From Hysterangium stoloniferum (taxonomy: Eukaryota; Basidiomycota; Agaricomycetes; Hysterangiales; Hysterangiaceae): 64,000 nt of DNA. This document shows positions 7,549 through 50,800 of the stretch, piece by piece; the stretch's first letter is position 1; every line of letters begins with the position of its first letter. The notes under the pieces were generated by a model. The model ran no database searches. It had not been told where the DNA came from and saw only the letters and a list, made by a program, of their open reading frames with translations. The translations under genes and the position numbers were made by a program. The stretch lies in assembly GCA_015178975.1 (NCBI GenBank), contig WHVD01000038.1, forward strand, positions 372,001 through 436,000. The letters are read 5' to 3'.

Positions 7549-9882
7549 TCAATGTTCTTCCGCAAAATGTTGCAAGCTGTTTAATTGTTCAGAGACTTGT
7601 TCCTTGAACACACACATGTCATTCGTGCTTTTCACAATCGCTTTGACCGTTTCATCCCTTAATCGGTCCATTTTTTCCACTTGTTCTTGATACCTGATAG
7701 AAATTATAAGATGAGATGGGACGTACTTGTGCGAGAGACTCACGCAATTTCCAAAGCCTGCACTCTGAGCTTGACTCCAACACCACTAGATTTGGCGGCT
7801 GTTCGTGCCTGCGCCAGCTCTCTCTCCAGACGAGTAGCCTCAGTGTTGCTAACTAATGCATCATCTTGAGCAGCCTATGGAGAGTATTGGTAACGGTGAA
7901 ACACATTGCAATATTCGCATACCTTTCTTAGCGAATCAGCTTGTTCAGATAGCACGTTAGTGCGTACTTCTACATTACCGATAGTCTCTTCGAGATTTTC
8001 GCATTCCGTGATGAGCTTGTCTATACTAAAGTCAACATGGATGACCTGATCTTCCGCATCTCCACGTTGTCGCCTGCGTTCATTGGTAAGTTCGGTTATG
8101 GCAGGTGCGAGGACTCCCTTAAGGTCTTCGCCTACAATAAGCTGCTTTGGGTCGTCCTTTGCAACATCAAATGTAAGATCAAACTTGATGTGGGAGACAG
8201 GAGGGGGAGGTTGAGGGTGCAGCTCCAACTGCCAAAGATATCCCATATATTCGTCTATGGCTTTCTCCATATCAGCTGTGCGATTCGCCAGGGCCACTTC
8301 TAGGTTGTGGTAGACTTGTTGCGTCTCTGCTACTTTACGTCTGAGCTCCCCGAGAGTACGGTGCAAATTGTCGTGTTCAGTGTTCATACGTGTCACTTCT
8401 TGGGGTGAAAGGTTTTGTTCCCTGACTGTCTGCGACAAATGCTCATATTCTTCTTGTAATTTCTGTAGATTAGACTCTAAAGCACACAATGAATATTAAG
8501 AATAAGGTCAAGTACTGATATATCACCTTGAGTATTAATTTCTGCTTTGAGTGTTTTCACTGAATCACTATATTTTTCAACTTTGGCATGATGGTGCGCA
8601 ATCACGCTAGTGAACTTCATTTGATCTTTTCGCAGATTGGAGTTATCAGCTTTCAGTTTCACAATCGGTGGCTACAGTCGAGTGACATCGTCAGTGCAAG
8701 GGTGAATGACAGGGTGGAAACGTACAGGAGCAGCAGTCACACGATCATACTCTTTTTGCAGTTGCGATAACTCATCTTTGAGTCTGTCTCTTTCTTGGAA
8801 AATTGCCTGGTTGCGCTTGGCTATTCGATGAAGACATCATCGAAGGGTTCAAGGACGGAGTTGCGTACTCACCATATCTATCCTCTAATTCTTGGTCTTG
8901 TTCTGAAAAGTCATCGGAACCTTGTAGGAAGACGTAGTATGCATCGACGTAGTATTCGAATGCAAGTGTGCTGTTGTGTTCCTCGCCAAAAATGTCGGGT
9001 ACTAGATCTTTATTCTGAACGGTAGGATCATCACTAGAAGCATAAGACGTCTTAACCTAAATATGCTTCTCTTTCAGATATCGCAAGGTATATATGTTTA
9101 TGGAACAACTGACCAAGCAAAGGAGCGTCATCCAATGTAGTACTGCCAGCATGGATGGCCACGCATGCATACTTCCAACAGCTTGCATCCATTTGATATT
9201 AATAAGATCAGCTGATGGATATCTATGATATTTTAGCGTTGGGATGATTTCATCGTCAAACTTCTTATTCCCTTTGCACAGCACATAACAGGGATCAAGA
9301 ATTTCGAAAAGCCATCGAAAGACTGTTTGGAAGTCTTTGCTGGTTGGGGATTGGAGCGTTTTTAGGGTGATATTGCCAGGAAATTGGCCCTCTGTTAGAA
9401 ATTTGAGAATTTGTTTTTGCTCTAAGATCTGAAATTGCTTGTCACGAATAGGACGGCTATCCTTCACAGTTTGAGCCATATTAGTCAATACGGCTGCTGG
9501 CGCAATAGACTGACGAGACATAATGCCTCTTCGCGAGCTGTGAGAGACGCATGGTATCAACAGTTACTTTATCTTAACATGAGTAGCAAACCTACTGCTT
9601 TGCGCTGAGGGGTGTTCGTCCGAAGGGTATATCGTTAGCTTTCCGAGTACTAGCCAATATTGGATCAATGTTCTGAGATCCAGCGCGCATCGTAGATTGA
9701 CGAGGGTTTGGCATTCCAGATTGTGAGCCAAATATGGATCCCCGCGATGTCGTTGTTGGTGCCATGGACATGCGCATGCGTGCCAATTGAGTATTCTTCA
9801 CATCAGATGAAGGCATAGGTATGCCTGACCGTGCAATGTTTGCAGGATCCACAGTGGGATGCAATGTTTGACGACTTTCCAT
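7549..9882 (-). CDS. NDC80: Ndc80/Hec1, kinetochore microtubule-binding subunit
   Basis: Ndc80 is the long coiled-coil subunit of the NDC80 complex that attaches kinetochores to microtubules. The N-terminal tail (from 9882) is basic and Ser/Thr-rich, with repeated RMRMS and RGSIFGSQSG pieces, the usual Aurora-regulated tail. It is followed by the calponin-homology domain (about 9530-9130) with RPIRDKQFQ, DFQTVFRWLFEILDP, LKYHRYP and AVGSMHAWPSMLAVLHW. Downstream exons are heavily coiled coil (for example 8489-7875 and 7743-7549) and the reading frame stops after LQHFAEEH. There are seven or more short introns. SPC24 of the same complex lies at 24172-24948. It is divergent from MOG1 (143 bp) and convergent with the exonuclease. 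Confidence 0.95.
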
Positions 9883-10025: not shown

Positions 10026-10692
10026 ATGAGTGCCCTGCGCGAACTTTTCGGGGGTGCTATAGTTATGAATGTGCCTAAATTTTTTTTGGATGCCTCGTAA
10101 GTCCTTTTTTTAATTCCGTTTGAAACAAGACCTTACTATGACTGTGACTATGAGTGATCTGCGTCAAGTTCCAGATACGCAGGAGGTATTCCTCGATCCC
10201 AACTCCAATTTCAGTCTGATTGTGGATATACTACAACGAGTTGATGCTGATGAGGATGAGCGTGCTGTCAAGTTCAGTCACAGTCATAATTCTAAAAAAA
10301 AGTTCACCGACATTTTCTTCAGGCTTCATTTCGACTGCTTAGCAGAAGATAACTCTGCTCACTCTCAACAAATCATCGGGATAACTGTCCCTTCTACCCC
10401 ACAACCAGAATGTCCCCCAGAAAGCCCATTCCCAATCATATTGCAGGGGGAGCAGACAATTCAGAAGTTCAATCAGAAGTTCAATCATAAGGACGACGAC
10501 CGAATTTGCATCCTTCTTGCTCTATATCGAATTAAAGCTAAAAAAGTGGACATACTACTGACGGCCAATATACCGCTGTCAATCAGTCCGTCTTCCTCGC
10601 AACCTGACGACTTAGCTGTTCGATTGGCTAAAGGAATTTTCAAGGCAGCTAGCCAGTCCCTTAAAGTTGTTGATTTCGAATTGTTTGCGTGA
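10026..10692 (+). CDS. MOG1: Mog1, Ran guanine-nucleotide release factor
   Basis: Mog1 binds Ran GTPase and aids nuclear protein import. Exon 1 (10026-10096) encodes MSALRELFGGAIVMNVPKFF. The next exon starts at 10155 and restores the family motif DASDLRQVPDTQEVFLD across the junction. A second, weaker intron (about 10273-10323, GTTCAG donor, ending TTCTTCAG) probably removes a Ser/Lys-rich insert and joins AVK to LHFDCLAEDN, as in homologues. Without it the frame also stays open, so retention would give a slightly longer protein. The rest has IIGITVPSTPQ and a C-terminal beta-rich part ending VDFELFA. It converges with the NRBF2-like gene, 200 bp away. Confidence 0.92.
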
Positions 10693-19195: not shown

Positions 19196-22100
19196 TCACG
19201 CAATGTCTTCATCTTTGTCTTCCAGTTGGCTAGGCTTTAGCATACCTGGAATCCTACTGGCCGCCTCGTGTTCCATGCGTGCTCGCCATTGAGCCTCTTT
19301 TTCCTTCTCCTCCAAGTATAGTTCCGCATTGTCGCCAGAGAACTCTTTGAGCTGAACGAGAAAGTCGCGCATTGCCAGTTTGAATCGAGCTGCGTCGTTA
19401 TGGTACTGGAATAAATTGGCAACGAAGGCTTGTATTTGTGCTCTGTCAATTTTGCGAGGTTGAGTAGAGTGAGTCTGATGGGATAGAAACTTACAATTGA
19501 AGATGTGTAAATGCCGTCTGTAGAAGATTGATACAGTAGTCACGGAGGAATTCCGAATTGGACACGTTGGGGTCAGAAAGAGCTGTCGGATCAAATAATG
19601 GCATCTGCACTTGTCCCGTTTCTACCAATTCAAACATTCGCGCAAGTAATTGACTCTGTAGACGGAAACCTGTACACACTTGAGGGCTCAGCGTCAGTTT
19701 CTCTAACATTTGGACATACCGCTTTTATGATCCGCGTCCGTTACCACCCAAAATATGTCCTGTAGTATGCTGAGAAAGTACTGTTGATAGAACGCATTGG
19801 AAATGCTTTGACTTTGGCTTGCAAAGTTATCTACAATCTTGGCACATACTAGACGATCTGTCAAGAAAAGTACTAACAATCTATGGATTGGATTACTCAC
19901 AACTTAGGCCCATGTCGGCGATATCACGCATAGTATGCTTAATAGCCCAAATGATGCTATCCATAAAAAGTTTGAATTGAGGCGTGGGGATATTTAACAG
20001 GGCTGTACAGCGAGTTGAGAAAGTCATATGACGGTAAGTATATAGACATACCGTCAAAGCAGCATCTATTAATGACGCTCAACAGCCTATACAACCCAAC
20101 ACGATGCTCTGGATATTCCGTAAAGTCTTTGTTTATCATATTGAGGGTGGGTTCGAATACAGCATCCAAAGTCGGGATAACCTGTGGAATAAAGCGCGCC
20201 TGTTGTGACATGATATGTCAGAGAAATAAGACCTGGATAAGCAACGTTCCAAACCTCCAAACGATCCGTAATAGTGGCCACAACATTCAGTACCTCTGCA
20301 TCTCGTGCCCAGGGTGAATTACTCGCATAGTCCCCAAGAATGGCATCAAGCAGAGGGGGGATGAGGTTATCATTAACAGCGTCAAGATCCTCCGCCCGTT
20401 CTACTTTTTTGACGTATGTCTCCAACAGCCTCAATATCTCTTTTTTAATTGTTCGTAGATTCCGAATTTTGGGAGTTTTCGTCGCAATAGGTCCTTCTCG
20501 TAGGACAGTTTCGCCGATGATACTGCTGACAGCCTTGTAAAGACCGAGCATATCCAGATAGATGCGTCCTAATTGCGGAAGGTAAAAGCTGCCAATTGAC
20601 GTACATGCTGCCACATTAGTTTTCAGAACATTTCCTATGACTTTGAGATTGTCCGTGTTTCCCAGAATATCAACATTCGAACCCGCTTGAGCCATGAGAG
20701 AATCCCAAGCATTATTTGGAAGCTCCATAAGTCGAGAGATAAGTTTCTCTTGGATCGGCTTATTAGGTTGTGCAGAGATCATGTAGCCGACCGCTTCGTA
20801 AAAGGTATGGACCTATTGAACCTATTAGGATGTGATATGTGGCGTCCCAGTGGTCATACCTGCTGTGGCGAAAGATCCACGGTGATCCGATGCAACAATC
20901 TCAGAATTTCATCAACGAAAGGCTCAGTCTCACCCGATTGCTGCATAACGAAATGCCGTCGGCATTTCTGAGCAATTTTAATGAATGTGTCGCAGGCCAT
21001 ATCCTGCACTCCTGGAGGTAATTGTTAGTCAAGCTAGATAATCATCAAATAAGTACGAACCTTCGTGAGTCTCGTGCATAAACTCGAATAACTTATTGAC
21101 AACCGTTTTCAAAAATTTCCAGTGCGCCTTCAAAAATCTTGGATATTGCCCAACAATGTACATGATATTTGAGGCGACCACAGCCTTGTTATCCTTTCCT
21201 GTCTTCATCTCGCAGAGACCTAAAAGATCCTTAATAACCGTCACCAAGAATCTCTTCTCGGCTTCCTCGTCTAACAGAAGGCGAATGTAAGCTGAAAGGT
21301 GCAGGGGACAACGAAATAAATCAAGTACTCATAGCACCCGAGATTGAACCTATCGCCCAGCAGAGTGTATTGAGGCTATTCCAAGACCACTCGGACCCAT
21401 CAACCTGTTGAGATAACTTTTCCGTGAGAATCGACTCGGTATCGTTGACATCCAGATGTGTGAGATACACTAGCAGCTCGCGCATCGACTTGTATAATAC
21501 GATAGTGTCGCTCTCTTTCATGAATTCGCGGACAATTTCTCCTTCATCATTTTCCACTACTAATACCTGAGAAGATTTTTAAATCACTGGAAAAGAAGAC
21601 GAGAAGTAAACAAACCTCTTCTGGCTTTACCATCCTTTCAATCACTACCAAACGCAAGTTGGATAGAACGTCCACATAAAGATCTCGTCTGAGAGGGACA
21701 CCATCAAGCATTCCTGAAGTACCCCCGAGGCTTAAACTCTTGATAAGACCTTCTTCGCCTATGGGCAAATTCTGAATTTCGTCGTATAGTTCTGCCACAA
21801 GTCGAATCCAGTATTCCATACAAATCTTGAAAATTTCACGTTCTTCGACCTGGCTGATTTTCACCATATATAGATGTGCATTGAGCAGTACATCCTTTGA
21901 CCGCGAAGTTTCCACTGCACGAAGATGATAGGAAAGGAAATTAGAAAGGAAAAGCGCGAGATTGAGGACAAGCTCTTGGTCACTATCCCCAGAGCTTTCG
22001 TACGCTTCAGCGATATCTAGATGATGGTTAGCGAATTTACGATACCCTACAAAGGAACAAAACAGACTGGTACTGGGTGGTATCATGCGATTGACTGATG

Positions 22101-23260
22101 TCATGGCCATAGCGAAGAGGATTACAAATTTAGGGTCGTACTCCAGACCAACATTGAACGCCGCAATCTCAGATAAACATCTTAGCGTCACATTCCGAAA
22201 ATCAGGAGCTTCTAGAAACTGCTCCTACATGTGAATTAAACGACAACATACCTTTTTAAGTAGAACTCACCCTAGTAAGAAGCATGTCGATAATCGTGGT
22301 TTCGAACACATAGCCAAGTGGAATCCAGTTCAGGAACCTCAGTAAAGTCTCCAGAGTAGTCTTGATCAAAGAGGACTTCATAGCTTTTTCGAGGACCTCG
22401 GAACACAGCTGGAAGATCTCAGAGAATTCTCCACACATCGAATTCTTGAGATCTTTGATCTTTTTCTGTGTCATTTGATCTGCTGAGTAGTCGAAAATTT
22501 CTTCGCTGAGAAGTTTCAATATAACCATGTTATTCTCGCAAACGCTGAGATTGGTTTTTGAGGATTGGACCAGCTCTGGAATAAATGATGACCAATTATG
22601 CGGCCACTCGTGTTTCAAAATCTAAATGAGAGTGTTATAATATTTACCTCAAGACTTATATTTTCATACCTGCACAAGAATTAGGTTAAGTTTGTTCATA
22701 AACGCCTTTTCTTTGCGCATCTTGTTCTCATCAGAGGAGATATCCATAATGAGCCCAACAATAAAATGTCGGATTCCTGGAACGTCCTTAGTTACTGGGA
22801 ATATCTCGACCCTTAATGCGAATTACCTGTGCGCTGTCCATCTGGTAATGCCTTCCACCGAGTTTGTACAAGCTTGTCAAGAATCTGTAAGCCAAGATAC
22901 TGTCCAAAGAAGCCAGTAAGGATGCAGGCCGGGGATTATATAGCGTTTTCGCGGGCTTACTTTGGCCTGTGGAAATGTGGATTGCTCTAAGACTTTTGGC
23001 ACACGCTGCCATGAGTCTGAATTCTCTTGAAACTCTGTGAGAACTTGCTGCGCTACTTGACGCTGAATAGCAAAATTATTTGAAGAAGAGAATATGTGCG
23101 TAGTCATGTACCTCATCACCGGATCCGGTATAGAACACCGTGACTACTTTGTCGAACAACGGAACATCAATTTCGTTGGAAAAATCCAGTATCGCCTGTG
23201 GGACAATAGCGATCATGAAAGGGTGAGTTAAGAACATAATGCGAAATATCATACCTCCAT
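19196..23260 (-). CDS. CRM1: Exportin-1 (Crm1), copy A; Cys at the leptomycin B site
   Basis: This is the nuclear export receptor for leucine-rich NES cargo, working with RanGTP. The first coding exon is only ATG GAG (23260-23255), followed by [23 protein letters not shown] repeats follow: [49 protein letters not shown] and [20 protein letters not shown]. The last exon ends [16 protein letters not shown]. About 15 short introns, no break seen, roughly 1,070 residues as expected. The NES-groove loop reads DLLGLCEMK; the Cys codon (TGC) is at 21212-21214 and is the residue equivalent to human Cys528 and fission yeast Cys529. An extra intron lies after SGAM (about 21275-21333) that copy B lacks. 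It is divergent from TMA20. Confidence 0.97.
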
Positions 23261-23403
23261 GCTGTCCGATCTTATAAAGAAAAATTGTTAAGGGTATATG
23301 TGACACGAAGGACAAAGCGCGAAAGTCGTGTCTTGCGTGTGTTCAGTCCACGTGACCGCGATAATATCGACGACTCACCACATTTCATAACATCCTCTTC
23401 TGT
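23261..23403. promoter_or_regulatory. Divergent promoter, CRM1 copy A / TMA20, with CACGTGAC box
   Basis: 143 bp between start codons, with CACGTGAC at 23349-23356. Confidence 0.5.
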
Positions 23404-24119
23404 AATGTTCAAAAAGTATATCAATCTGACATACATATTTACTGCTCTATCTGACATATAGCACCCTAGGTTCGCTCCTGCCACAGATATTGCAGGACAA
23501 ACTATTCTAAAGTCTTCTGTCCAACGATCGATTAGGACGGGACTCCTCACACAACTTAAGCTTGATGCTGAAACACTTGAGCAAATCTGGCCCAAGAAAG
23601 AGCCTCTAGTTCATGTAAAATGGTGTGCACTCCCTTTACCTACAATTTCTCTGCTCCGATAATGATATTTAGAAGCAGAGACCATATTTCTGTATACACA
23701 TTGCATGGAGAACCTTTGTTTTTTCAACATTTTGATGGGCCCTACTTCCCAACCTTGAGGTTATTGCATAAGTGTACGTTGCACCATGTTGAATATCTAG
23801 TATTGCTGAGCATCAATTTCTTGCAGATCCCTTCCTTTTACCCTCGGTAACAATAGATCGAGGTGCAATCCGTTTCCTGCTCTCAGGGGCACACATGATG
23901 TGTCCGGGTTTTACTTCAGCAGGGGGACAGCTCCCACCGGCAGAGGAAGCCTTGCCAGAGAACACTGCTGTGTCTATTCTTGCGGAAGGCAAAGAACACG
24001 CCGTCGGTATAGGCATTACAAAACTCAGTACAGAGGATATTAAAGCAATCAATAAAGGTGTTGGAGTGGAGACAACTTGTTATCTTGGGGATGACTTGTG
24101 GAATATTGAAAAGTTGTGA
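23404..24119 (+). CDS. TMA20: Tma20/MCT-1, PUA-domain translation factor
   Basis: Tma20 acts with Tma22 in recycling 40S subunits after termination. Exon 1 is just MFKK (from 23404). After the first intron comes HPRFAPATDIAGQTILKSSV, then EQIWPKKEPLVHVK, RDHISVYTLHGEPLFFQH, DGPYFPTLRLLHKY, and the PUA domain FLLSGAHMMCPGFTSAGG, ending GDDLWNIEKL. The lengths and motif order are those of the family (about 180 residues). Three introns of about 50 bp. It is convergent with SPC24 (52 bp between stops). Confidence 0.95.
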
Positions 24120-24171
24120 TACATTTAGACATCGTAAACGTAATAATGTACAGAGTAGTATCTGGAATCAG

Positions 24172-24948
24172 TCAGTGGGAGGCCAGGTCCCAAAGCATCT
24201 GAGTATAATATGCATCGGACTGGTGTCCATCGAACGTGACAGAATGGACTTCGTTGGATTCCGAGCCTGACAACTATAAGTGTCTGGCATACAATAGCTA
24301 AATTTCGAGACTTACGGACAAGGATTTTAGCCACATTACCATGCTTATCCAGTATAGGCTCAAACCCTAAACTCCGGCAGATTTGAAGTCGTAAACTAAA
24401 CAGACTAGCATTAACTATTCAGATATTGAGCAAGCCCGCAATACTCACGCAGTAGAATCTAGTTCATGGTCGGATGTCACATCCATGTTCTCAAACGCCC
24501 GTTCTTCATCTCTTAACCGCAATAATTCGGCTTCTTTACTTGCCAATAGACCTTCCGCATCGTTTATGGCCTTTCCGAGGCCCATACGCGTATCTTCAAT
24601 ATCATTCATAGATGATAAATGCTCCTGTTCGGTTGGTATGTTCGAGGGACGACTAGCGGAAACCTTTGCTTGCTCCAGGTGCCGTGATAGAGCTTTTACA
24701 CTGGTCAGAGATTTGAGATCAACGCTCAAAGCAAATTACCTCGTAGCTTGGCGTGAGTTTCATCGGATACTTTCTGCCTAGCAGCTGCTTTCATCTTCAT
24801 ATGTTCTTCAGCATTTGTGATCACAACATAATCGTCCTCAGGATCCATATGCTCGTTCATAGTCGCAATAATAGGACTTATGTTAACAATAAGGTACTTG
24901 ATAGCAAAAGACGAGAAATAGTACGTACATTGGCCCTAGCCAGGACAT
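24172..24948 (-). CDS. SPC24: Spc24, NDC80-complex subunit
   Basis: Spc24 pairs with Spc25 to anchor the NDC80 complex to the inner kinetochore. Exon 1 (MSWLGP..., from 24948) joins after a 50-bp intron to IPIIATMNEHMDPEDDYVV. The middle is a coiled coil (24729-24445) rich in Leu, Glu and Lys. The C-terminal globular RWD domain reads LGFEPILDKHGNVAKILVR, then NEVHSVTFDGHQ and ends YYTQMLWDLASH, matching fungal Spc24 to its last residue. NDC80 itself is 14 kb away in the same window. Confidence 0.92.
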
Positions 24949-25316
24949 GATTGTACTTGATTGTGCTCAGAAACACGGTGTGACAAGGATCACGTGATGT
25001 GTCACAATAAATTAGTAAACATATTCTTTAGACAGGTTCAGGATAATTCGTATATGAAAGCAGTGTCAGTGTATCCCAAGTACAATGAAACCAAGGAAAA
25101 CCTGGAAAGACCAAGGTTATAACCGCTCATTAAATAATATGTTAAAATGCCCTCTTTTACAGTCGTTCATGGAAGCATATATGTATATTATTGTGGAAGA
25201 TGTCCGTCTCACTTATTTTGTAAACAATATGATCTGCCTAAGCTTGTCAGAACTTTCCACATACTATGGATTAGATGAGAATTATAGTAACATTTTTGTG
25301 CTCTGCGACTACTACA
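24949..25316. other. Intergenic, SPC24 promoter and CCT1 3' end
   Basis: About 370 bp, A/T-rich. CACGTGAT occurs at 24990-24997, within 50 bp upstream of the SPC24 start codon. A plus-strand frame at 25085-25465 overlaps the CCT1 terminal exons and looks like a chance opening. Confidence 0.4.
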
Positions 25317-27358
25317 CTAATGGCCGTGCTCATCACGCTCAGGTTTTGGTTCTAAAGATAAACATTAACAAACATGTACATATCGATGAAGCTGGATTGC
25401 TCACCAGGGATACAGTGTATCGCATCATCGATCCGCAAGAGGGATACAGCGGCTTCAAATGCTGACTTCAGGCTGCGTACCTTGCTCACTGTTGGTTCCA
25501 AAACACCAGCCTTTACGTTATCCCTAACCTCCCCGTTCATAAGGTCAAGACCGTAATGTAACAAAGCCTTTTTGGGATCACCAGCCGGTGCATTCTGAGC
25601 AGCATTGTGATATGAACGAAGTTTGGCGACCAATTCCGTGGAGTCTTTTGCGGCATTCACAGCCAGAGTCTTGGGGATAATGAGTAACGCATTGGCAAAC
25701 TCAGCAATAGCCAATTGCTCTCGAGAACCCTGAAGAAAAGGAGACATTAACAGCATATAGTAGAGTAGAGAATAACCACTTACGAGGGTGGTTGCGAAGT
25801 TTTCAAGATAAATACTTAAGGCTGTCTCTACAGCACCTCCTCCCGGCACCACAGCACCACTTTCCAACGTCCGTTTGATAATCGACAGGGTGTCGTGCAA
25901 AGCACGTTCCATTTCATCAAGCATGTAGTCATTGGCACCACGCAAGACGACGGATGATGAGCTGACTACTTTGGTCCCTTTGATCAGAATGAGCTCGTCA
26001 TCTGCGATTCGTTCTTGAACAACTTCGTCAGCTGTTCCTAAACTACTAGCTTCGAACGTTTCCTCTCCTTCGAGATTAGCCAAGCTAGACACCAAAGTGG
26101 CACCAGTTGCTCTCGCAATTCGCCTGAGGTCTTCTTTTTTACACCGTCTAACAGCCATAGCACCAGCCTCCACGAATTCTTTCAAACAAAGGTCATCTAT
26201 GCCCTTAGTGGTCAAAACAACATTGGCACCGGCTGCAAGAATCTTGTGAATGCGTTCAAGGGTGATTTCGGATTCCCTAGAAGTATGATTAACAAGGAAC
26301 AATCAAATCACATAACAAAATATACCTTTTGCGAATTTCCTCTAACTGGTTGGGATCGTCAATCAGGATTTGTACTCCCAGATGCATACGAGTTTTGTGC
26401 AAGTTGATATCCAGGCAAGCAATTTTTGCATTGGTGATGCGGGTTTTCATGGCTAGTGAGGGGGAACGCTAAGGATGATGTAGCAACTAAATAAACGGTC
26501 CGAACCCACCTTGGCTTGCCACAGTGCAATTCAGAGCATATCCTTTCACGAAAAGAGACTCCCGAGCGCTTTTGCCGTGAGCTTTCAGGACATTGACGGC
26601 CTTCACAGGATATTTTATTTCCCCCCGGTTGTTGATTGTCTTTACAGAAAGCATGGCCTCCACCGCCATAGGCGCAAATAGATCGTCGTCGCTGGAGAAT
26701 CATTAAATCCAAGAAAATATGTATGCACACGTATGTGTTCGTACCTTCCGATGATTTTGCTGGACATGGAGGTTTTTGCAGCATTGATCAAGGCTTCTTT
26801 TCCGAGAGCATCCACTTTAACACTAAGTTGATCAACCATAAATTTACACGCCTCTCTGCACGCCAGGCGATATCCTGTGATGATAGTCGTTGGATGAATC
26901 TTTGCCTTGACGAGTTCGTTTGCTCTGCGCAGCAATTCTGCTGAGATGATGACAACAGAGGTTGTACCGTCCCCTACTTCCTTATCTTGTTTCTGGGCAA
27001 GATCCACAAAAATGCGGCCAGCAGGATGTTCAACCTCAAGAAGACCGAGAATGGTAGCTCCGTCGTTCGAAATAGTAACTTCCTGTAATGACATGAGTCA
27101 TATGTAACCACGGCTATCTCATCATCTAATGTCGTACGCACACCGATGTTGTCTACCAGCATCTTGTCCAAGCCAAGAGGACCAAGTGAACTTTTGACGA
27201 TGTTTGCAATAGATTGTGCAGCCACAACTAATAGACATCAACTTCGGAGTCCACGCCAAATTTTTTGACATACCATTCTGATCACGAATCTCCTGGCCTG
27301 ACACACGATCTCCCCCAAGGAATGCACCTGCTCGTGGATCGCGTCCGAACATGGCCAT
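25317..27358 (-). CDS. CCT1: Chaperonin CCT/TRiC subunit alpha
   Basis: This is one of eight subunits of the cytosolic chaperonin that folds actin and tubulin. The start is [18 protein letters not shown]. The equatorial domain has [30 protein letters not shown] and the nucleotide motif [13 protein letters not shown]. The apical domain has [18 protein letters not shown], and the second equatorial part has [18 protein letters not shown] and [20 protein letters not shown]. An intron (donor GTGAGC near 25408) links [12 protein letters not shown] to a short final exon [11 protein letters not shown], so the true stop is at 25317-25319. The blocks SSKIIG, KIACLD and KAGVLEPT identify the alpha subunit. 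Eight or so introns and full length. ACGCGT lies upstream at 27439-27444. Confidence 0.97.
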
Positions 27359-27660
27359 CCTTAAAATCAAGAAGGGTAGTAAGCGCGCAAGTTCTAGCCG
27401 CGCGGACGTATTTTACTAGAACGAAGAAGATGTAGTTGACGCGTGTGTAACATTTGCTGTTGTATAAAAATAATACAGTTTCACAGTAAGACTGTGTGAT
27501 TGATGTAGAACTATATCCATAATATATGTACCAATTCGTCGTATTAATGCTGGAACAGATATGGCAAAATATATGTAGTAAAGTTATAGAATTGTCCGAG
27601 TCTACAGGCTACAGTATACAGTTACTACGCGGCCGAGAGTATGCGGATATCAACATGGGA
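27359..27660. other. Intergenic, CCT1 promoter / b561-type gene 3' end
   Basis: About 300 bp between two minus-strand genes. It contains one ACGCGT (27439-27444) 80 bp upstream of the CCT1 start. No other structure seen. Confidence 0.4.
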
Positions 27661-28442
27661 CTAAGCAAACCCTTGTTTCTCCATCCTCTGGCGATATTCG
27701 GCCTCTTGCTTAATCTGTCTAGGATATAAAGCGTAACCCAGTACATATAAGATAGGGAAGAGCTGTGTCAGTTTAAAAGTTAATAGACAGGACACTTCAC
27801 AGTGCGGAATAGCGTACAATGACTAATGCCATCCAGGCAGTATTCACGTTTGTGGGAACAGGCAAGCCGACGAATGTAACCCATTCTACAGTGTATCCGA
27901 GGTGGACCTGGTAGAAGGCAAGACCGAAGATAGCCAGGCCCAACATAATGTGGAGGATCTGGTGGGGAGTGCGGTGAAGGAAAATACTGCTCGAAGGTCG
28001 TTTGACGAAGTGCGAGAAGACTCCAAGGAGCACTTGTGCGAAATACAAGACGAAGAGAGTAAGACCTAGTTTCTGTAACGACATGAAGCCTTCTATCACG
28101 GATATGTGCTGTTGCTATTACAAACCGTATGAGTATCACCAAAATTTGTTGTGGCGTCTGTGGCCACCGTGCGTTGAGTAGCCTTAAGACCGTAGGCGAC
28201 ACCAGCCACAATGACTGGCCCGGAAACGAGAGTTTGGAAGATTGCATGTCCATAAAACCATTTATTGGTAAATGTGCGCGCATAGCGGGGGATAAGAATG
28301 CCAATAGGAATGAGCACAACGAAGCCTATTGAAGCAAGGGTGGCATGGAGTCGTGTCTAGACATCTTGAGGGACTGGATAGTATAGGGGAGTGGTGAGTA
28401 ACTAACCTCGTGTTGATATGCGTTGAAATTAAAGGAGGCCAT
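27661..28442 (-). CDS. Cytochrome b561-type transmembrane protein
   Basis: Four exons splice to about 190 residues starting MASFNFNAYQHE. Helices visible in order: RLHATLASIGFVVLIPIGIL, HAIFQTLVSGPVIVAGVAYG, LGLTLFVLYFAQVLLGVFSH, ILHIMLGLAIFGLAFYQVHL and WMALVILFPILYVLGYALYP, then a basic cytosolic tail. His residues at the start of helix 1 (RLH), in YGHA, in FLHRTPH and in ILH are placed like the heme ligands of b561/ferric-reductase-like membrane proteins. It has no DOMON domain, so it is the short form. The last intron was set by phase: GTC ATT joins CTC TTC. The electron donor and acceptor are unknown. Confidence 0.8.
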
Positions 28443-29844
28443 GGTGAACTTTTGCTGGTAGGGAGACGGAGGAAGGTGAGTGTGTCGGAACTAGCGGGGA
28501 GTGAGCTTATAGGTTACAAAGAAAATAGAGAGTGCGAAAAGACAGTTGATCAGATTGGTGAGGCAGACACTATGATCATAGCATTAAGCGATTGATCAGC
28601 CAATAAGCGTGTGTCAACTGTGTCAAAGGTAATGCGCAGTCAAGCCGTGTTGCCTGATGTCGGGTCGTGAGAGTCAAAGAGTTAAATAGGTATGACCACA
28701 TAGACATGAGAATTTTACTCTGAAATGTAATAGTACTGAAGATAGTAGACTCATGTAGTAGGCGACGGCTAGAAGACTTCCCGGGATGCTTTGAGCATTT
28801 GGCTGAAATATCAAATTTTATTCTTGCTGAGCGTCGCCGAAGTTGAGCCTAACTGAATCCTAATCGTGGTTGTTGAACTCGTATTCAGGTTCTTTGTTTA
28901 GACTCTCTGGAAACTTGAGCCTTGCCGCATGACATAAAGCCTATATATATTCAGCCGAGTGAGGCCATCAGGTATAAATAGAATAGCACGTCCTGGGCTG
29001 ACGAAAGAGGTTTTCCTTTTGATAGCTATCCAAGCTGAGGAAGTCAAATCATTCACTTTATCCCATTTTACAGAAATACGTAACTGTACACTGCAATAGG
29101 TTACCTGCATGAGTCTTGTTAACGAGTACCTATCTGAAATAACCGACATCAATTGTCAGGAGGGAGATTCTCGCGTTGAGAAGAGGCGGACCACAGATGA
29201 AAGGGGGAGAAAGAATATTTTGATCCATGCACTCTTGTATCGGACAGCATAGAAGAAAGTTGCATAAATATTAGCAATTTCCCGGAGGGCTAGGTGGAGG
29301 CGGGATAAAAATCTGGACGCACTTAAGATCCGTCTAAGTGAGTACAAACTATTTGACGGAATATAGACTCCAGCGGTCTTCAGGTATCTGAATGTCCATA
29401 GCAAACATGCAGTGGGTTGGCATGGACTACGTTGATATTAATAGTTACCGTACGGGTAAAATGAATCGATCATCATCATTGACAGCGAGTGTACGTACCT
29501 ATCACAAACAATCTATGAATCGTTAATCATAAACTTGCTTACTTGAAACAGAGACTTTTCAGCTAGAGGATTACTGTACTTGTTAGGACAGGTTGTGCTC
29601 CATAACTGTCCAAAGCCGTACTTCGTCATAAATCAAGAGTAACCGTAGTGTTGTACAAAAACAAAACATGCCTATAGTGTAGTCGATATAGCTTCTGCAA
29701 AAGACATATAAATCAAACGTTCAAAAAGTAAGTGCTAGTGATTGACGATTGACGAACCATGCTTCCCGAAATTTCGGCGGCCACAGCCACCTCGCTTTCA
29801 TCTGACTAATCACTTGTTGCTTGTGAACTACACCTCCCCTGCAA
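28443..29844. other. 1.4-kb divergent intergenic region, b561-type gene / CRM1 copy B
   Basis: I can support no gene here. Minus-strand open segments at 29156-29404 and 28898-29152 could be exons of an unrecognised protein, but I found no convincing splice chain or motif. A 12-bp perfect palindrome (CCGAAATTTCGG, 29766-29777) lies 67 bp upstream of the CRM1-B start codon. Confidence 0.35.
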
Positions 29845-32800
29845 ATGGAGGTGAGTGTGAACGCACCATTAGCAGCTTTGTTCATTGGCTTATATACTAC
29901 TCTTAGGGAATCCTCGATTTCTCAAAGGACATCGATGTGCCATTGTTTGATAGGGTCGTGACCGCCTTTTATACAGGTGCTGGCGCAGATGTGGGTACCT
30001 ATATATGTTTTGGTTCTCTTCATCGGTCTGACACGCTATTTTTATGTTAGCAACAACTCGCCCAACAAGTTCTTACGCAATTCCAAGAAAATCCTGATGC
30101 ATGGCAAAGAGTCCCGAAAGTGCTTGAAGAATCGCCTCATCCTCAGGCAAAGGTGATATGGCATTTCCACAGTTCCGCGTTTAAATTGATCCTTTATATT
30201 CGTCATAGTATCTCGGTCTCCAGATCCTTGAAAAACTTATCCAGACACGCTGGAAGACTCTTCCTGATTCGCAGCGGCAAGGTATAACATCCATCTCTCG
30301 CCCGGTGGCACTGTTACTCACAGGATGAATAGGCATTCGCAATTTCATAGTGTCACTCATCATGCGGATCGCGGCTGATGAAGCAGTTGTCCGGAAGGAG
30401 AAGACTTACGTGAACAAGTTAAACTTGATTCTTGTTCAAGTGCGTATTTGCATGTTTCATATGAAATTAGCATCTCACGTATTGTGCTCCAGATTTTGAA
30501 GCAAGAATGGCCGCACAACTGGCCTGGATTTATTCCTGAACTGGTGCAATCATCGAAAACTAATCTGTCACTATGCGAGAACAACATGATTATTCTAAAA
30601 CTTCTCAGTGAAGAGATATTTGATTATTCTGGAGAGCAGATGACTCAAACAAAGATAAAAAATCTCAAGTATCAAATGTGTGGCGAGTTCTCGGAGATAT
30701 TCCAGCTTTGCTCGGAGGTGTTGGAGAAAGCACAGAAGGCATCACTCATCAAGGCTACACTAGAAACTTTACTTCGCTTTTTAAATTGGATTCCTTTGGG
30801 CTACATTTTCGAGACTACATTGATCGACATGCTTTTGAATCGAGTGAGTGACGTTATTGATTTGTTTCTGGACCCTCATTCAAACACGTATGCAGTTCCT
30901 TGAAACCACCGATTTCCGTAATGTGACCCTTAAATGTTTGTCGGAAATAGCAGGTCTCAGTGTTGGACCCGAATACGATCCTAAATTCGTCGTACTGTTT
31001 GCCATGGTTATGACATCTGTTAATAGGATGATACCGCCTAGCACAAGTAAGAATTCCTTACTTTCATCCCCATAACACGTCCTGATATTATATAGATATT
31101 GCGGAGGCGTACGAATCAACCGGCGATAGTGGCCAGGAACTTGTTTTAAATTTAGCTCTTTTCCTCTGCAATTTTCTTTCAAACCATCTACGATCTGTAG
31201 AGACCCCCTCCTCGAAAGATGTGCTTCTTAATGCTCATCTTTACATGGTCAAAATAAGTCAGGTAGAAGAACGGGAGATCTTCAAGATCTGTCTTGAATA
31301 TTGGTTGAAACTTGTTGCCCCTCTGTTCGAGGAGCAACAGAAATTGCCAATTGGCGACAGTGGCTTATTAATGGGACTTAACCTCGGCGGTGCGTCAAGT
31401 ATGCTTCCGGGCCTTAATCTTCGGAAGACGATCTATAAGGACGTACTATCAAATCTGCGGCTTGTGGTTGTCGAAAGGATGGTCAAACCTGAGGAGGTAA
31501 GCAGCTTCGACGCTATGTGGAATCCATCGAAGTTGATTTCCTTCGTTTAGGTCCTCATCGTTGAGAACGATGAGGGAGAAATCGTTCGAGAATTTATGAA
31601 GGAAAGCGACACTATTGTCCTTTACAAATCCATGCACGACTTGCTTGTTTATTTAACCCATTTGGACGTCCAAGACACGGAGAACATTCTCACCGAAAAG
31701 CTACAAAAGCAAGTCGATGGCTCGGAATGGTCATGGCAAAACCTCAACACCCTTTGTTGGGCTATCGGTTCCATTTCGGGGGCAATGAACGAGGAGACAG
31801 AAAAGCGCTTCCTTGTTACTGTCATTCGAGAACTACTCGGTCTTACGGAAGCCAAACGCGGAAAAGATAACAAAGCCGTGGTTGCTTCGAACATCATGTA
31901 TATTGTCGGACAGTATCCTCGATTTTTGAAAGCGCATTGGAAATTTCTCAAGACTGTAGTGAATAAGCTCTTCGAATTCATGCATGAAACGCATGAAGGT
32001 ATGTCTCTTCAGAGTCTGACAAATGTCAATATGCATCCACTGAAACTTCTTTAGGGGTCCAGGATATGGCTTGCGATACGTTCATCAAAATAGCGAAAAA
32101 ATGTCGACGACACTTCGTCATTCAGCAATCTGGTGAAAGCGAGCCCTTCGTGGATGAAATTTTACGAACATTAGATCATATCACCGTAGATTTGTCGCCG
32201 CTACAGGTTGGTTATATCAAATAAAGCAGAGACATATGCTAATGTATACATTCATTAGGTCCATACATTCTATGAAGCAGTTGGCCATATGATTGCTGCA
32301 CAGCCTAATCGCACTACTCAGGAAAAGCTAATCACCAAACTTATGGAACTTCCAAACACTGCTGTCAGTTACTCCTCTTTGTGCTCTACATGTCTATTAT
32401 GCTAATTCTTTGTAGTGGGACGCGTTAATGGCACAGGCGTCCTCGAATGTCGACGTCCTAGGCACACAAGAGAATGTTAAGATTCTTGCTAACATCTTGA
32501 AAACAAACGTTGCAGCCTGCAGCTCAATCGGCCAATTCTATCTCCCTCAGATAGGACGGATTTTCCTGGATATGCTGGGCCTTTATAAAGCTGTTAGTGG
32601 TATCATAAGCGAAAGTGTAGCTCAGCAAGGCCTGGTATCGACCAAGACGCCGAAGGTTCGAAGTCTCCGAACAATTAAAAAGGAAATTCTCAAGTTGATG
32701 GATACTTACATCAAACGATCTGAAGATGCTGAGGGTATCAATAACAATTTCATACCACCTTTGTTGGATGCCATATTAGGAGATTATAACAGCAACGTCC

Positions 32801-33921
32801 CACCTGCACGTGATGCCGAGGTTCTGAATGTAATGACAACAATAACCGTTCATCAGAAGGTTTGTGGCACTTATTCTTCAGTCGCGTGCCTTGTCAATTA
32901 TTAATTTCTCAGGAGCATCTGGTACCCCAAGTCCCTGCTATCTTGGATGCTGTATTTGAAGCGACGTTAAATATGATTAATCAAGATTTTACCGAGTATC
33001 CCGAACATCGTGTCGGTTTCTACAGTATGTTACGGGTTATCAATCAGTTCTGCTTTGCTGGTGTGTTTGATACAATCCGCTCTTTACATTCTCGCTTACA
33101 ATGTTGTTCAGCATTACTGGCCATTCCCCCGGCACAGTTCAGATTATTCATGGATAGTGTTGTTTGGGCCATCAAGCATACTATGAGGGACATCGCCGAC
33201 ATTGGGCTGTATAGTGCGTACCTGAATTTAGTTCTGGCCAACTTGACTAATTTATCTTGTCAGTCTGTCTTGAGGTTATCAATAACTTTGCCGAGTCTGA
33301 CCCGGCGATAGCGAATGTCTTCTATCAGCAGTACACCCTCAGTTTATTGCAAGACATCTTGTTTGTTCTGTCTGACAGCGATCATAAAAGCGGTAAACAC
33401 ACACCTCATTGGATTCAACCATTTGCTGAATATTTTAATAGGGTTTAAACTGCAAAGCACTGTTCTTGCTCGTCTAATACAATTGGTCGAAGATGGCTTA
33501 GTTCAACAACCTTTGTTTGACCCTGCTACAATGTCAAACCCGGCCATGACCAATTCGCTGTTCATGCGAGAATATTGTGTGAATCTCCTTAAAACTGCAT
33601 TTCCTCATCTTCAACAGTAAGCGGATCGTTTTGATACATCATTGTTACTCACAACAGTCAATCAGTGCCCAAGTGGAACGGTTTGTCCAAGCCCTTGTCG
33701 ATCAGCATAAGGACTTTGCCCGCTTTAAATCGACTTTACGAGATTTCCTTATTACATTGAAGGAGTTTGCGAGTGAGGACGACCATGCCGAGTTATTCTT
33801 AGACGAGAAAGAGACAGAAGCTCAGCAACGCGCTCAAACTGAAAGAGAAATTGCTATGCGTATTCCCGGTATGTTGAAGCCGTCACTACTAGAAGATAAG
33901 GACGAAGATTTGGACGGTTGA
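29845..33921 (+). CDS. CRM1: Exportin-1 (Crm1), copy B; Thr at the leptomycin B site
   Basis: A second complete exportin-1. The first exon is again only ATG GAG (29845-29850), then [20 protein letters not shown] from 29907. Every exon I followed joins at GT-AG sites without a break: [67 protein letters not shown], and the end [19 protein letters not shown]. Intron positions match copy A except that [16 protein letters not shown] is uninterrupted here. The groove loop reads ELLGLTEAK, with the Thr codon ACG at 31845-31847 replacing the reactive Cys. Budding yeast has Thr539 here and is naturally leptomycin resistant. Acidic C-terminus is kept. It converges with the CAF-1 gene (231 bp). Confidence 0.97.
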
Positions 33922-34152: not shown

Positions 34153-37029
34153 TTACACAGGCTTCGATAATCCATGTTGCATCTGAAATGCGTTAGGAGC
34201 ACCATAATTTACAAGAGAAATCGCACATACCCATATGTGATCCCTTACTACCCAAATTTTCTTGGATTTATCCTTCTCAACAACTTCGCGCAACTTCGCC
34301 TCGAGCGCGTTCTTTTTAATACCGAACGACTTCAGATCTTGAAACATCGTATCGAGTAAAACAATAAAGGAACTAGTATTGCAGGCAGCGACCTTATTCA
34401 GGAGAAGAGGGACGTGCATCTCTGGAAAGCACGTTTTGGGCATGGTCTGATTTGTGGATTTACGTTTGACAAGTAAACCCTGCTGTGAAGCTTCTGCAGC
34501 GATGGGGAGAGCAGGTACAGCGAAGGTGGCATCCCTTGAAGAACACTGCACATCCTTTCCAGGCAAGACCGTACTGGTTGTGAAAGTAAAGGGGTCAAGA
34601 GGGAATGTAATGTCTAACAAGAATATGAATTAGCTCGTCCGCCGTGAGCGTGACAAAAGATACTTACCGTTGAAAGATTGAATTCGCATACAACTGAAAG
34701 GCTCGTAAGTACATGTTCCGAGTTCATACTCCCACGCGGGCCCTTTTTGGAATGGAATGAGAGGCACAACTCTCCGCCTTTTTATCAGAGCTTCACGATT
34801 ATCAATTGTCTTCCTCTTGCCGGTAATACTCGTCAAAGGTATGGTGCCTTCTTTCGTAGCCAAAGGCTCCACCTCCACCTCATCACCTTCCACGAGCCAA
34901 TCCACTAGATCCGAGGCTACACTTGAAATCTCATCATCGTCCAAAGTATCATCCACAGAATCGACTTCGTCGCCGATTTCCTCTTCCTCCCATTCAGCGT
35001 CACTGTCAAGTTCATAATTAAAAGCAGCCAAGTCACGGGCAAATGGTGTCCTAGGACCTATTGTGCTCGAAACCTTAGTCCACGTGCCTGTGACAATTGA
35101 GAGCCAGCCTTTGAGTATAAAATTTCTCATACCAAGATATCCGGGTCTGTTATTCTCCGCAAAAATGAAGACTTTCGCAGGAATAACACTCCTATCTTTC
35201 AACATCGCTGTTAGTTTCCGAACACTGCGGTGATTCCCCTGTACTTCAGCATCATTGAGTTCATGCATCAGTGAGCGGACACTACGTTGCAGTGTTGTTC
35301 GACGTTGTTGTTTGATAGTAAGGGTACTCTCTCGAAGACACGGCGTATCCAAGTCCAGGTGGTATTGTAATGTTTCTGTATGTCTTTAGATTTATCATAC
35401 AAACACCTTTTGAAGAAGCAGTACCTCGTGAGCTTAAGGATGAAACATCCAACTCCTCATCGTCCACGTCCATCTCACTGTGTTCAATGTCTGCCGTTGA
35501 AATTTGTCTGCCATCGTCATCAATTTCAATGACTGTCTTCCGCTCCGCAGAAACCTTTCTATTTCGGTGCTGACGTTGGGCGAGAAACCAATTGCAAGGA
35601 GCCATCTGTACATCCTTCTTGACAACAAACGGCTTAAATGTTGCGTCGTGATCGCTCACTGGCTTCGTTCCAGTGGAAGAAGATTGTGTATGTAATGAAC
35701 TTGAGCGTTTATGCGATTTTTCTGAAGTTCCCGCCTTGAAGAAATTCGCGAACACGACAGCAGATTTTTTATTGGCCTTTCATGAGGGTGAGTGATGTAA
35801 TCGTTTAAATAGACTGATAATAAATACGAACCTCTGCCGCTTTCTTTTCCTTTTGAGCTCTGATTGCTTTCTTCTCTTGCCTTTCCTTCTCCTGTTATAA
35901 AACATTGGGGTGGTGTGACATAAGGCTAGTGTGGCTTACCTTGGCAATAGCTTCAGGATCAGTACTCTTCTTCTGCCGTGGAGGCTGTCTCGAGCCCGAC
36001 TCAGCTATATCGGAACCCTTTCTCAAGGTTAGCGCGATGCATACAATTGGCAACTTCAACATACTTCATCTCTTGTGACTGAATCTAAGTTGCCTGTATT
36101 AGCAGAGGCAACCCTGAGTCCTGTATCTTTGTATTTGTCATTTTTCCCGAGGAATGCATTTCTCTCGTCATCTGAGAGGGCTTCGAACATCAGCCGAAGT
36201 TGTTTCTTGGCCTGGACAACGTCAACACGCTTATTTCCACCATGTTAAAAACAACGCTCACTACAAGTCGTTCATTGGAACGTTGGGTGGCTGTTTCCCT
36301 CACTGACTTGGGGAGCCATTCTATGTTTTTCACTTCCCACCGCCAGACTGACAACCCTGAGGGGTTTTTATCCGAGTCGATGATGATGCCATAGTTAACA
36401 CGGGTCGCAACCCCCTTGATGGCATGTTCTACTGCGGAAGGCGCTATAGAGATTTCCGTTGTAGAAGATTGTGATGACGACTCCAAGACCGGCGGTATAA
36501 GTAATGCTTGAAGTGATTTAGCTAAAGTAGCTGCAGTTTTGTCACTGTATTTTTCGTCACCTACACTCTATCGCACTGTAAGCTCAACAAGTCTAACCTT
36601 TCATGCACCAATTTTGCGATAAGAGGCAGATGTATATCCGGTATTTCTAGTATCTTTTGTCCTTGTAATGCTATGAAGTTGCGAAAATTCACGATTTCTA
36701 CGAGTATCCTGTTATAACGAGACGCGCATATTTGGTGATTATGATCAGATACCTTGCATCGTTTCTGACAGGTTCTCGAATGATAATGGCTTCTGTTTGA
36801 AGAGAACTTTCCCATTCTTTAATTCTGCAAGAGGTGATGCAAGCTTAGACTTGTCAAGTTTTCCTGCAGACGCGGCGGTTATGGATTCAGATATATAAAC
36901 ATAATATGAATAGACAAACCTGTCGCTATTGTCCCATTTTCTGGAGTGACTAGAAAATATATATAAGACGTTATTATAAGATGAATGTCATATCATACCT
37001 TGGTTTATGTCGGAACTAGTGAGATTCAT
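34153..37029 (-). CDS. RLF2: Chromatin assembly factor 1 large subunit (CAF-1 p150/Cac1)
   Basis: This subunit deposits H3-H4 behind replication forks and binds PCNA. The protein starts MNLTSSDINQ (short first exon). The middle has a Lys/Glu/Arg-rich KER region (about 35940-35820, EKERQEKKAIRAQKEKKAAE), followed by ANFFKAG, a possible degenerate PIP box. The core CAF-1 block (35160-34980) has NNRPGYLG, then ARDLAAFNYELDSDAEWEEE, the conserved acidic ED region. A winged-helix-like C-terminus with KKNALEAKLREVVEKDKSKK closes it. The last intron (donor GTATGTG near 34206) leads to MQHGLSKPV. It is divergent from RFC2 with only 75 bp between start codons. Confidence 0.88.
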
Positions 37030-47832: not shown

Positions 47833-50800
47833 TTAATTGTGGAAGGTGGCCCCGACGTTCTGGGGATTTTGTCCACCGAACACTTGATACATGTACGCAT
47901 TATAAAGATGGGGGGGAATGGCGTTTTGTGGCACCCCATATTGGCCTTGATTCATTCCCATAGCAGCTCCAGCCTGAGCAAGACTCGGCGCTTGTGTATT
48001 GTATTGCAATCCACTGATGGGCGCGGGGGAGGCGTTCGCCGCAGCGCGTCGAGTGGTATTACGGGCCCCAGGTAGAGGGCCACCAGTAAATTCTGGGGAA
48101 CGCAAAGAGAACGGATTAAATGGGTCGCTAGTGGGTGAGAAGGCAGCGGCCGATGGTGCAGCCGACGACCGCATGCGGTTGGTATTCTGCCCATAGCTAG
48201 GGTTAATCTGTAGCTGGGGGGGACCATTCTGGGGAGAAGAAGGTGCGACCATCTGGCCGCCAGGACTACCAACTTGCATCTGCAGCGCTGCCATCATGCT
48301 TGCGAGTGACGGATCAGGTCCACCGTAACCCACGGGTGACATACCGAAGCTGCTTGTCGGGGGTAACGACTTTTGTTTTATGGGCTGTGGGATGTTTGTT
48401 GAATACTGAGGTTGGAAGTTCGGAATCGGCAGTCCAACTTCTTCAATGAGGCGACGGTATGCCTGTGTTGCAACAACTTTTAACTCGATCAAGACTCTCT
48501 TTGTGGCTTCAAGGAAAGCAGGTCTTTCGGCCTGATCAATGAATGTGCTCGTCAACACTTTATGAACAACCGCGACGCCGTTGACTTGATCCCCCAATAC
48601 ATCAGTCAAAACATGGTCGTTTGGAGAATTGAAGAGAGCTTGTACTATCTCTTTGGAGGCCTCCGGTTCCACCTTCTGATTGACGATCCTTAGGACAGTC
48701 AACGACGCGAGCTTGTGAGTGCACAAATGCGACAGGTGAGGTGTGAACCGTGGTGCCAAAAGCTTGTAACGTGCAGGAAAACCAGATGTGTCCAATAACC
48801 AGGTAAGCAGTAATGCACCGTTGGGGTTTGTCGCCAGTGGAATGGAGTTGAGGATTACTGCGGTCGCAAGGCGGCGCTGCAAATAGGCGTCAGGCACTAC
48901 GAGACAAAAACAAATGAGGAGTCGTACCTGCTGGCTCATTGTTACATGGGGATTTTCCAGACAGGCTCTGACACTCCGAGCACCAAATCGACCTTGTGCC
49001 ACTTCCCAAAGACGGTCGATCATGGCGTCGAAAACAAATTCATTAGCAGGTGCGCCAAAACGCAGACAGCATCTATAAAGAAAGCTTAGAAAACATAAGG
49101 TGTCAAAGATGTGAAAACGCACTGCACAACGTAATTGCCAAATTGATCGAGCAACAAAGGCGGTGCATATGGTCTCAAGTTTTGGGCAATCAAACTCATT
49201 TCTTCCGGAGAAGAAACGCACTCTATTATTTTTTGGGCCGCCCAAGTTCCATTCTTATGAATGCCAATTGCCGCAAGATGCGGCGCGATGCGCTCAAGCA
49301 TAGCGTATCTAGGACCATCGGAGCATTTCTCAAAAAGCTTTTGTACAACCTAAAAGATGGTATCAGCATGAGGGAAACATCCCCTTTTCGCAAGAAAATC
49401 TCACAGTATTTCCCAACCAGTCAGCAGCCAGATCGACAATCTCGCCGTCTAAAAAGTCCTTGGCAACCTCGTCGACTTCCTCACCAGTCATTCCATTAGA
49501 GTCAAGTCTCTTTCGCAATTCCCTCAGTTTAGAGGCATCCCAGCGCCTGCTCTGTTGTCTGTCTGCAACAGCCGGAATGGTAGTATAGTACATGGTAGGC
49601 GGCCGGAAATCTGCACGCAAGGTTAACTAGCTGTAACTCACTGTTAGATTGCGCTACTCACCAGAAAGTGCCTGTATATCCGCTTCAGCGTCCGCCGCTC
49701 CCTTCGTAATTTCCTTCATTATCATTTGCTGTTCCGTGATTGACGCTGTCCAACCTCCTTGTTTAGGGACTGAATCAGCTTGATTAACACCATTATGTGT
49801 TCCCTGTCCGATCATACTAAGCAACAAGTTGGAGCGATAATTTTCCACAGCTCCGCCTAGAACTTGCTGATCAGCAGGAATAGTCGACGCTCCTTTGACA
49901 CTGCGAAGTGCATGGATAGTAGCGCCAACACTAAGGTCGCCAACGCCCTGAACACCAACACCGATCATCTCCTCCGGAGTTTGATTCTCAGAAGCACCCT
50001 TTACGGGAACTTTTGCAAACCCAATTCGGATGGCACCGACGTCACTCCCGAGAACATCACGGCCGTTCAAGGCTTTACGAGCCCTAACCGCATCGTCCAA
50101 ACGCTCGAAATTAACTAGAATAAAATATCGTCACATCCAATTGTACAAGGGTATTAGTCAACGTACTGAAACCGCAATTTTTATGTGTTAGAACCCTAGC
50201 AGATTCAATAGGCCCATAGGGGCTAAAAACACTCAAAATAGTAGCAGGCGTTGTGGTCGAAGGAATGGAACCAATCCATAGTGCTCTTGTAGGAGTGGAT
50301 TGTAATTGAGCATCCATACCGCCAGGACTATTAGGTCCACCTGGAGAAGGTCTCGCACCACCGGAGGTGCTCGGGGAAACGATACCACCTGGTGACATGA
50401 TACCTTTTGCCGGAGCGACAGGGGCGCTATCGGCCTTGCCAAAACCGATACGAACGGTCTGGCCATTTTGCATGCCTATGTTACCTCCTAGTCGGTTCAG
50501 TACGTCCTCCTTGGCACGGATGGCATCCGCTTGTTCCACAAAGTTGACGAATCCGCATTCCTAAGACATAATAAACTCGTGTCAATCATCAAAATATCCC
50601 AACTAACCTTTTCAGGAAGTAGTCTCAAACTCTCTATGGCGCCGTATGATGCGAAAACATGTATTAATGCTTCTCCCGTCATGGTAGAATCCAAATTACC
50701 AATCCACAGCGACCTAGACGGGGTCTGAATCTGGCCAGCTGGCGTGTCAGTCTTGGGGGACGATGCACGAGCGGAGAGGGGACCTCCAGGGCTCATATAC

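Follow-up and report, generated by a model that had tools for sequence, protein, structure and literature searches.

An old pair of exportin-1 (CRM1) genes with cysteine and threonine at the leptomycin target position in Hysterangium stoloniferum

Exportin-1, or CRM1, is an essential protein, best known as the target of leptomycin B and of the selective inhibitors of nuclear export (SINE drugs). In a 64-kb stretch of the genome of the basidiomycete Hysterangium stoloniferum (contig WHVD01000038.1, positions 372,001 to 436,000; hereafter the window), we find two intact copies of the CRM1 gene on opposite strands, copy A on the minus and copy B on the plus strand (Table 1). At the position of human Cys528, the leptomycin target residue, copy A encodes a cysteine and copy B a threonine. 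We propose that the pair arose by an ancient inverted tandem duplication, that a chaperonin gene lies between two copies which both work, that they were most likely retained through subfunctionalisation or dosage, and that copy B would be drug-tolerant as a consequence of this retention. To this reading as a whole, which is drawn from sequence comparison, we assign a probability of about 0.6.

The original prediction had called two intact exportin-1 genes in this place, and both indeed splice into full-length models without internal stops. Each model has 17 exons and 16 introns, all of the latter bounded by GT and AG and 43–61 nt in length; as the junctions were picked by hand from these dinucleotides and from homology, the consistency of the introns is not an independent proof of the models. 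Fifteen of the 16 intron positions in each copy are common to both, while each copy also has one private intron that is absent from the other model (Table 1). The first exon consists of just six bases (Met-Glu) in copy A (23255-23260) as well as in copy B (29845-29850), and the position and phase of the intron are identical in the two. A search of the 111-Mb assembly with the CRM1 protein, for which all ten first-look candidates were scored, yielded 27 matches, every one of them inside copy A or copy B. The Pfam domain Xpo1 (PF08389) scores above its cut-off in both copies; its two other matches in the genome lie on C35 and C2, contigs on which the search with the CRM1 protein found nothing. 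A DNA search with the 940 bases upstream of copy A returned only that stretch itself, the window holds no Rfam match at or above the gathering score of a family, and, as expected, one scan each of a prokaryote genome collection and a viral collection, with two short peptide patterns each, found no homologue.

The assignment to exportin-1 rests on the solved structures of the family. With copy B as the phmmer query against PDB chains, residues 11-1072 align to residues 12-1085 of the best chain, 4fgv, with an E-value of 0, and copy A was placed through alignment; such full-length similarity to solved CRM1 chains excludes a chance match. We take 4fgv to be CRM1 of Chaetomium thermophilum and 3gjx that of mouse. 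In a four-way alignment with these two chains, in which identities to the PDB chains were taken over 940-951 aligned columns, copy A is 57.7% identical to C. thermophilum and 56.5% to mouse CRM1, copy B 59.1% and 57.4%, respectively. Across 31 hand-picked positions of the groove that binds the nuclear export signal (NES), the mouse residue is replaced at one in copy A (532) and at two in copy B (522 and 528). Given their intact sequences and conserved groove, both proteins most likely function in the RanGTP-dependent export of leucine-rich NES cargo.

The two copies share 812 of 1074 residues (75.6%) and so differ at about 24% of their amino acids, whereas their fourfold degenerate sites have diverged to the level expected from base composition (79/305 or 25.9% identical, against an expectation of 25.4%). 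The nonsynonymous distance dN after Nei and Gojobori (NG86) is 0.18, the corresponding synonymous distance dS is undefined, and a maximum-likelihood dS of 23.6 is meaningless beyond saturation. As the synonymous sites are saturated and dN is nevertheless only 0.18, the pair must be old and both copies constrained. By their sequences, A and B are paralogues of long standing rather than alleles, and the assembly is haploid-like. That the assembly had joined two alleles or haplotypes, which the original prediction named as one of the findings that could overturn it, is contradicted by the saturated fourfold sites, by the private introns and by the neighbouring genes Ndc80 and Mog1, each with a single match in the genome. 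The GC contents at third codon positions, 0.48 and 0.47, are nearly equal as well, and we consider an artefact of any kind, contamination included, to be extremely improbable, even though the contig was not checked against sequencing reads.

In an LG+G4 tree of the four sequences (925 columns), the branches measure 0.164 for A, 0.118 for B, 0.187 for their common stem, 0.396 for C. thermophilum and 0.486 for mouse. If a clock is assumed, simple arithmetic on these branches would give the duplication an age of about 43% of that of the common ancestor of ascomycetes and basidiomycetes. Mouse and C. thermophilum have the same residue at 502 sites; of these, 21 are changed only in A, 26 only in B and 63 in both, and two relative-rate tests are not significant (63 vs 49 changes, chi-square 1.75; 51 vs 42, chi-square 0.87); by these measures, there is no sign of decay in either gene. 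Within codons 601-700, 16 of 31 fourfold sites are identical, more than in the other codon intervals (about 25% expected; p = 0.0016, for one of 11 intervals), which points, if only weakly, to an old gene conversion or to constraint on the bases.

The codons TGC in copy A and ACG in copy B stand where the original prediction had read them, and both align to human Cys528, a column with Cys in the 3gjx chain and Thr in the 4fgv chain. A second difference concerns the position of human Arg532: the other three aligned proteins all have the arginine there, and copy A alone has a threonine; at the positions of human Lys537 and Lys568, copy A retains both lysines. We take these three residues (yeast Arg543, Lys548 and Lys579) to be the basic residues that hydrolyse the lactone of leptomycin. 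They are presumably also the ones altered in the yeast CRM1 construct of PDB entry 4haz, for which the expected triple-mutant sequence matches the chain at 84 of 84 residues. Copy A resembles this construct in being non-basic at position 543, one of the three altered there, but it differs in keeping the other two lysines, and its threonine is natural. Basic residues near the cysteine are described as opening the lactone by hydrolysis, which renders binding irreversible, and the ring no longer opens once three of them are mutated (PMC4588050). Copy A could in principle be alkylated at its cysteine, but because Arg532 is missing, the resulting adducts may be reversible. Of the original view that copy A is the sensitive form, the presence of the cysteine stands; without Arg532, the protein is not plainly sensitive.

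For copy B, the same prediction of resistance holds as a forecast of escape from covalent attack. Saccharomyces cerevisiae CRM1, whose residue we take to be Thr539, offers a natural comparison, and the yeast CRM1 chains among the PDB matches shown all carry an engineered cysteine at that site. At odds with the threonine, PMC4588050 writes the yeast change as S539C. S. cerevisiae, which is without the cysteine, is insensitive to leptomycin, and heterozygous mutation of human Cys528 confers resistance to SINE drugs, for which this residue is the binding site as well (PMC7221118). In Schizosaccharomyces pombe, the crm1 mutants C529A, C529S, C529T and C529V are all viable and all came from selection on leptomycin at 300 nM; high doses are withstood by three of them (PMC6008054). 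Work on Aspergillus nidulans employs kapK1, an allele that makes the fungus sensitive to leptomycin (PMC4488483), a hint that wild-type cells are insensitive. By its threonine, copy B should likewise escape covalent attack by leptomycin, and since a heterozygous Cys528 mutation suffices for SINE resistance, a cell with a single functional copy that is insensitive should be protected. Copy B, if expressed, should keep essential export running under leptomycin-type electrophiles, and it would be unsafe to presume that leptomycin stops export in a fungus of this kind. The made or selected S. pombe mutants and the human mutants are alike in that loss of the cysteine gives resistance in most cases; they differ from the present case in being alleles of one gene rather than an ancient paralogue.

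Several points weigh against the picture of an old, evenly constrained pair with a drug-tolerant copy B. In a looser count, changes in A exceed those in B (73 vs 49, p = 0.037, uncorrected), and in the N-terminal third they do so by 27 to 11 (p = 0.014, uncorrected); on this count, constraint may be weaker on one copy than on the other. If evolution accelerated in the copies once they had duplicated, the clock would overestimate the age of the duplication, and any statement on the ancestral residue or on the age of the pair among relatives would rest on A, B, mouse and C. thermophilum, a set with no other basidiomycete CRM1. As regards the drug, leptomycin can occupy the groove even without the cysteine (PMC4588050), and the same article, in its accessible portion, describes only the triple basic-residue mutant and not the loss of Arg532 alone. 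Likewise, the accessible text of PMC6008054 does not name which of C529A/S/T/V fails at high dose.

Why were both copies kept? One answer is that they divide cargo by the groove residue, the Cys and Thr forms preferring different NES-like signals. In S. pombe, a fragment of Mto1 locates to nuclear pores with Cys529 or C529A, but not with C529S, C529T or C529V, so that residue 529 appears to tune signal recognition (PMC6008054), and the concentration of A-only changes in the N-terminal third (again uncorrected) points the same way. By analogy with the Mto1 result, a residue-driven division of labour is plausible; as the full explanation, we hold it only tentatively, given that the sole CRM1 of S. 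pombe tolerates either Cys or Thr (PMC6008054). The viability of both forms there speaks equally for plain redundancy or dosage, with the residue difference as neutral drift in a duplicated gene, and both residues also occur in natural CRM1 proteins (the 3gjx and 4fgv chains). Redundant duplicates, however, are usually lost, while the synonymous saturation implies that this pair was retained for long, and drift of this kind is a possibility on which we would not rely any more than on a division of cargo.

A third explanation, in which the target was duplicated for resistance and copy B kept against inhibitors from competitors such as Streptomyces and Sorangium or against the fungus's own metabolites, appears unlikely. 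Loss of the cysteine does lead to insensitivity in yeasts (PMC6008054, PMC7221118), and that residue is described as the point of covalent attachment for leptomycin B, anguinomycin A and ratjadone A alike (PMC4588050). But self-protection, as the original prediction had suggested, finds no support at the locus: no biosynthetic family occurs among the 13 matched of 30 scanned open reading frames (ORFs), and a genome search for ketosynthases gave 16 matches, all on other contigs; terpene, non-ribosomal peptide and other biosynthetic families were not searched. Moreover, a lineage can alter its sole copy, as in C. thermophilum, where what we take to be the one gene has Thr, and the age and broad constraint of the pair favour two general functions. 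Resistance to natural inhibitors is a possible cause of retention, then, but one without positional support at the locus. Less probable still, in our estimate, is an electrophile-sensing pair, in which copy B would be a constitutive, attack-proof exporter and copy A, lacking Arg532, a reversible cysteine sensor; if this were true, the cargo of copy A would stay in the nucleus for as long as quinones and lactones, from plants or from the fungus itself, are present. Under our preferred reading of retention by subfunctionalisation or dosage, the Cys/Thr difference would alter the response to inhibitors and possibly NES preference, without necessarily having been selected by inhibitors.

The comparison with known systems shows where the pair departs from them. 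CRM1 of S. pombe (Cys529), S. cerevisiae (presumably Thr539) and C. thermophilum (Thr) belongs to the same family and has the same groove and residue types, but none of these fungi is known to have more than one copy, whereas here both residue types occur in one genome. To our knowledge, exportin-1 is normally single copy in fungi, as the original prediction had also assumed. Besides XPO1A, Arabidopsis has XPO1B. More broadly, in many species each karyopherin-beta subfamily comprises more than one protein, with Trichomonas vaginalis having fifteen XPO1 members (PMC3083441), and AtXPO1A is described for Arabidopsis (PMC9699179). Duplication of XPO1 as such is known, and the Arabidopsis and T. 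vaginalis genes resemble the present pair in having duplicated within a lineage; they differ in not being fungal, and the residue at the drug site is not mentioned in the accessible portions of PMC3083441 and PMC9699179. A duplicated fungal CRM1, including a Cys/Thr pair, was not found in the PMC literature among the matches listed, judged by titles and abstract openings. A long-kept Cys/Thr pair amounts to a natural experiment on the role of this residue beyond drug binding, and makes it possible to address which signals are carried by each form, what redox function, if any, the cysteine serves, and how susceptibility to exportin inhibitors is shaped by a duplicated target.

Table 1. Features of the window, with coordinates counted from its first nucleotide.
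Feature	Coordinates	Strand	Description
CRM1/exportin-1 copy A	23260-19196	minus	17 exons, 1080 aa, no internal stops; hand-spliced conceptual model
CRM1/exportin-1 copy B	29845-33921	plus	17 exons, 1077 aa, no internal stops; hand-spliced conceptual model
Intron private to copy A	21271-21328	minus	absent from B model
Intron private to copy B	32364-32415	plus	absent from A model
Leptomycin target residue, copy A	21212-21214	minus	TGC, Cys524 = human Cys528; alignment
Same site, copy B	31845-31847	plus	ACG, Thr524 at human Cys528 position; alignment
Human Arg532 / yeast Arg543 position, copy A	21200-21202	minus	ACA, Thr528; alignment
Human Arg532 position, copy B	31857-31859	plus	CGC, Arg; sequence
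TCP-1/CCT chaperonin gene	25355-27097	minus	between A and B; ORFs 25355-26302 and 26645-27097, PF00118 in both
Ndc80	9060-9563	minus	Pfam; copy A side; one genome match
Mog1	10114-10689	plus	Pfam; copy A side; one genome match
CAF-1 subunit A-like ORF	34630-35352	minus	Pfam PF12253; copy B side
ABC transporter domain and weak chromo-domain match (below cut-off), one ORF	63051-63998		Pfam
Large ORF without Pfam match	55708-57315	minus	535 aa
Large ORF without Pfam match	50497-51816	minus	439 aa

The 30 ORFs of the Pfam scan were drawn from 418 stop-to-stop segments of at least 60 aa, CRM1 exons included; 13 matched (3/10, 8/10 and 2/10 by batch) and 17 did not. Apart from the genes in Table 1, the matched neighbours include SF3A1/Prp21-like pieces, an APC3-type protein with tetratricopeptide repeats, an AAA ATPase and a long catalase. 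The ORF with the ABC transporter domain we take to resemble the fungal elongation factor eEF3.

Elsewhere in the genome, there are seven matches to the class II peroxidase extension, and for one such gene the nearest PDB chain is a manganese peroxidase; we read this peroxidase set as that of an Agaricomycete. With 39 scored out of 2451 first-look candidates, the 5.8S rRNA has at least five matches of differing score, spread over four contigs. Compared by eye, the copy at C15:56248-56402 differs from that at C516:302114-302268 by many C-to-T and G-to-A changes, and it looks like a case of ribosomal DNA decay driven by methylation or of the kind caused by repeat-induced point mutation.

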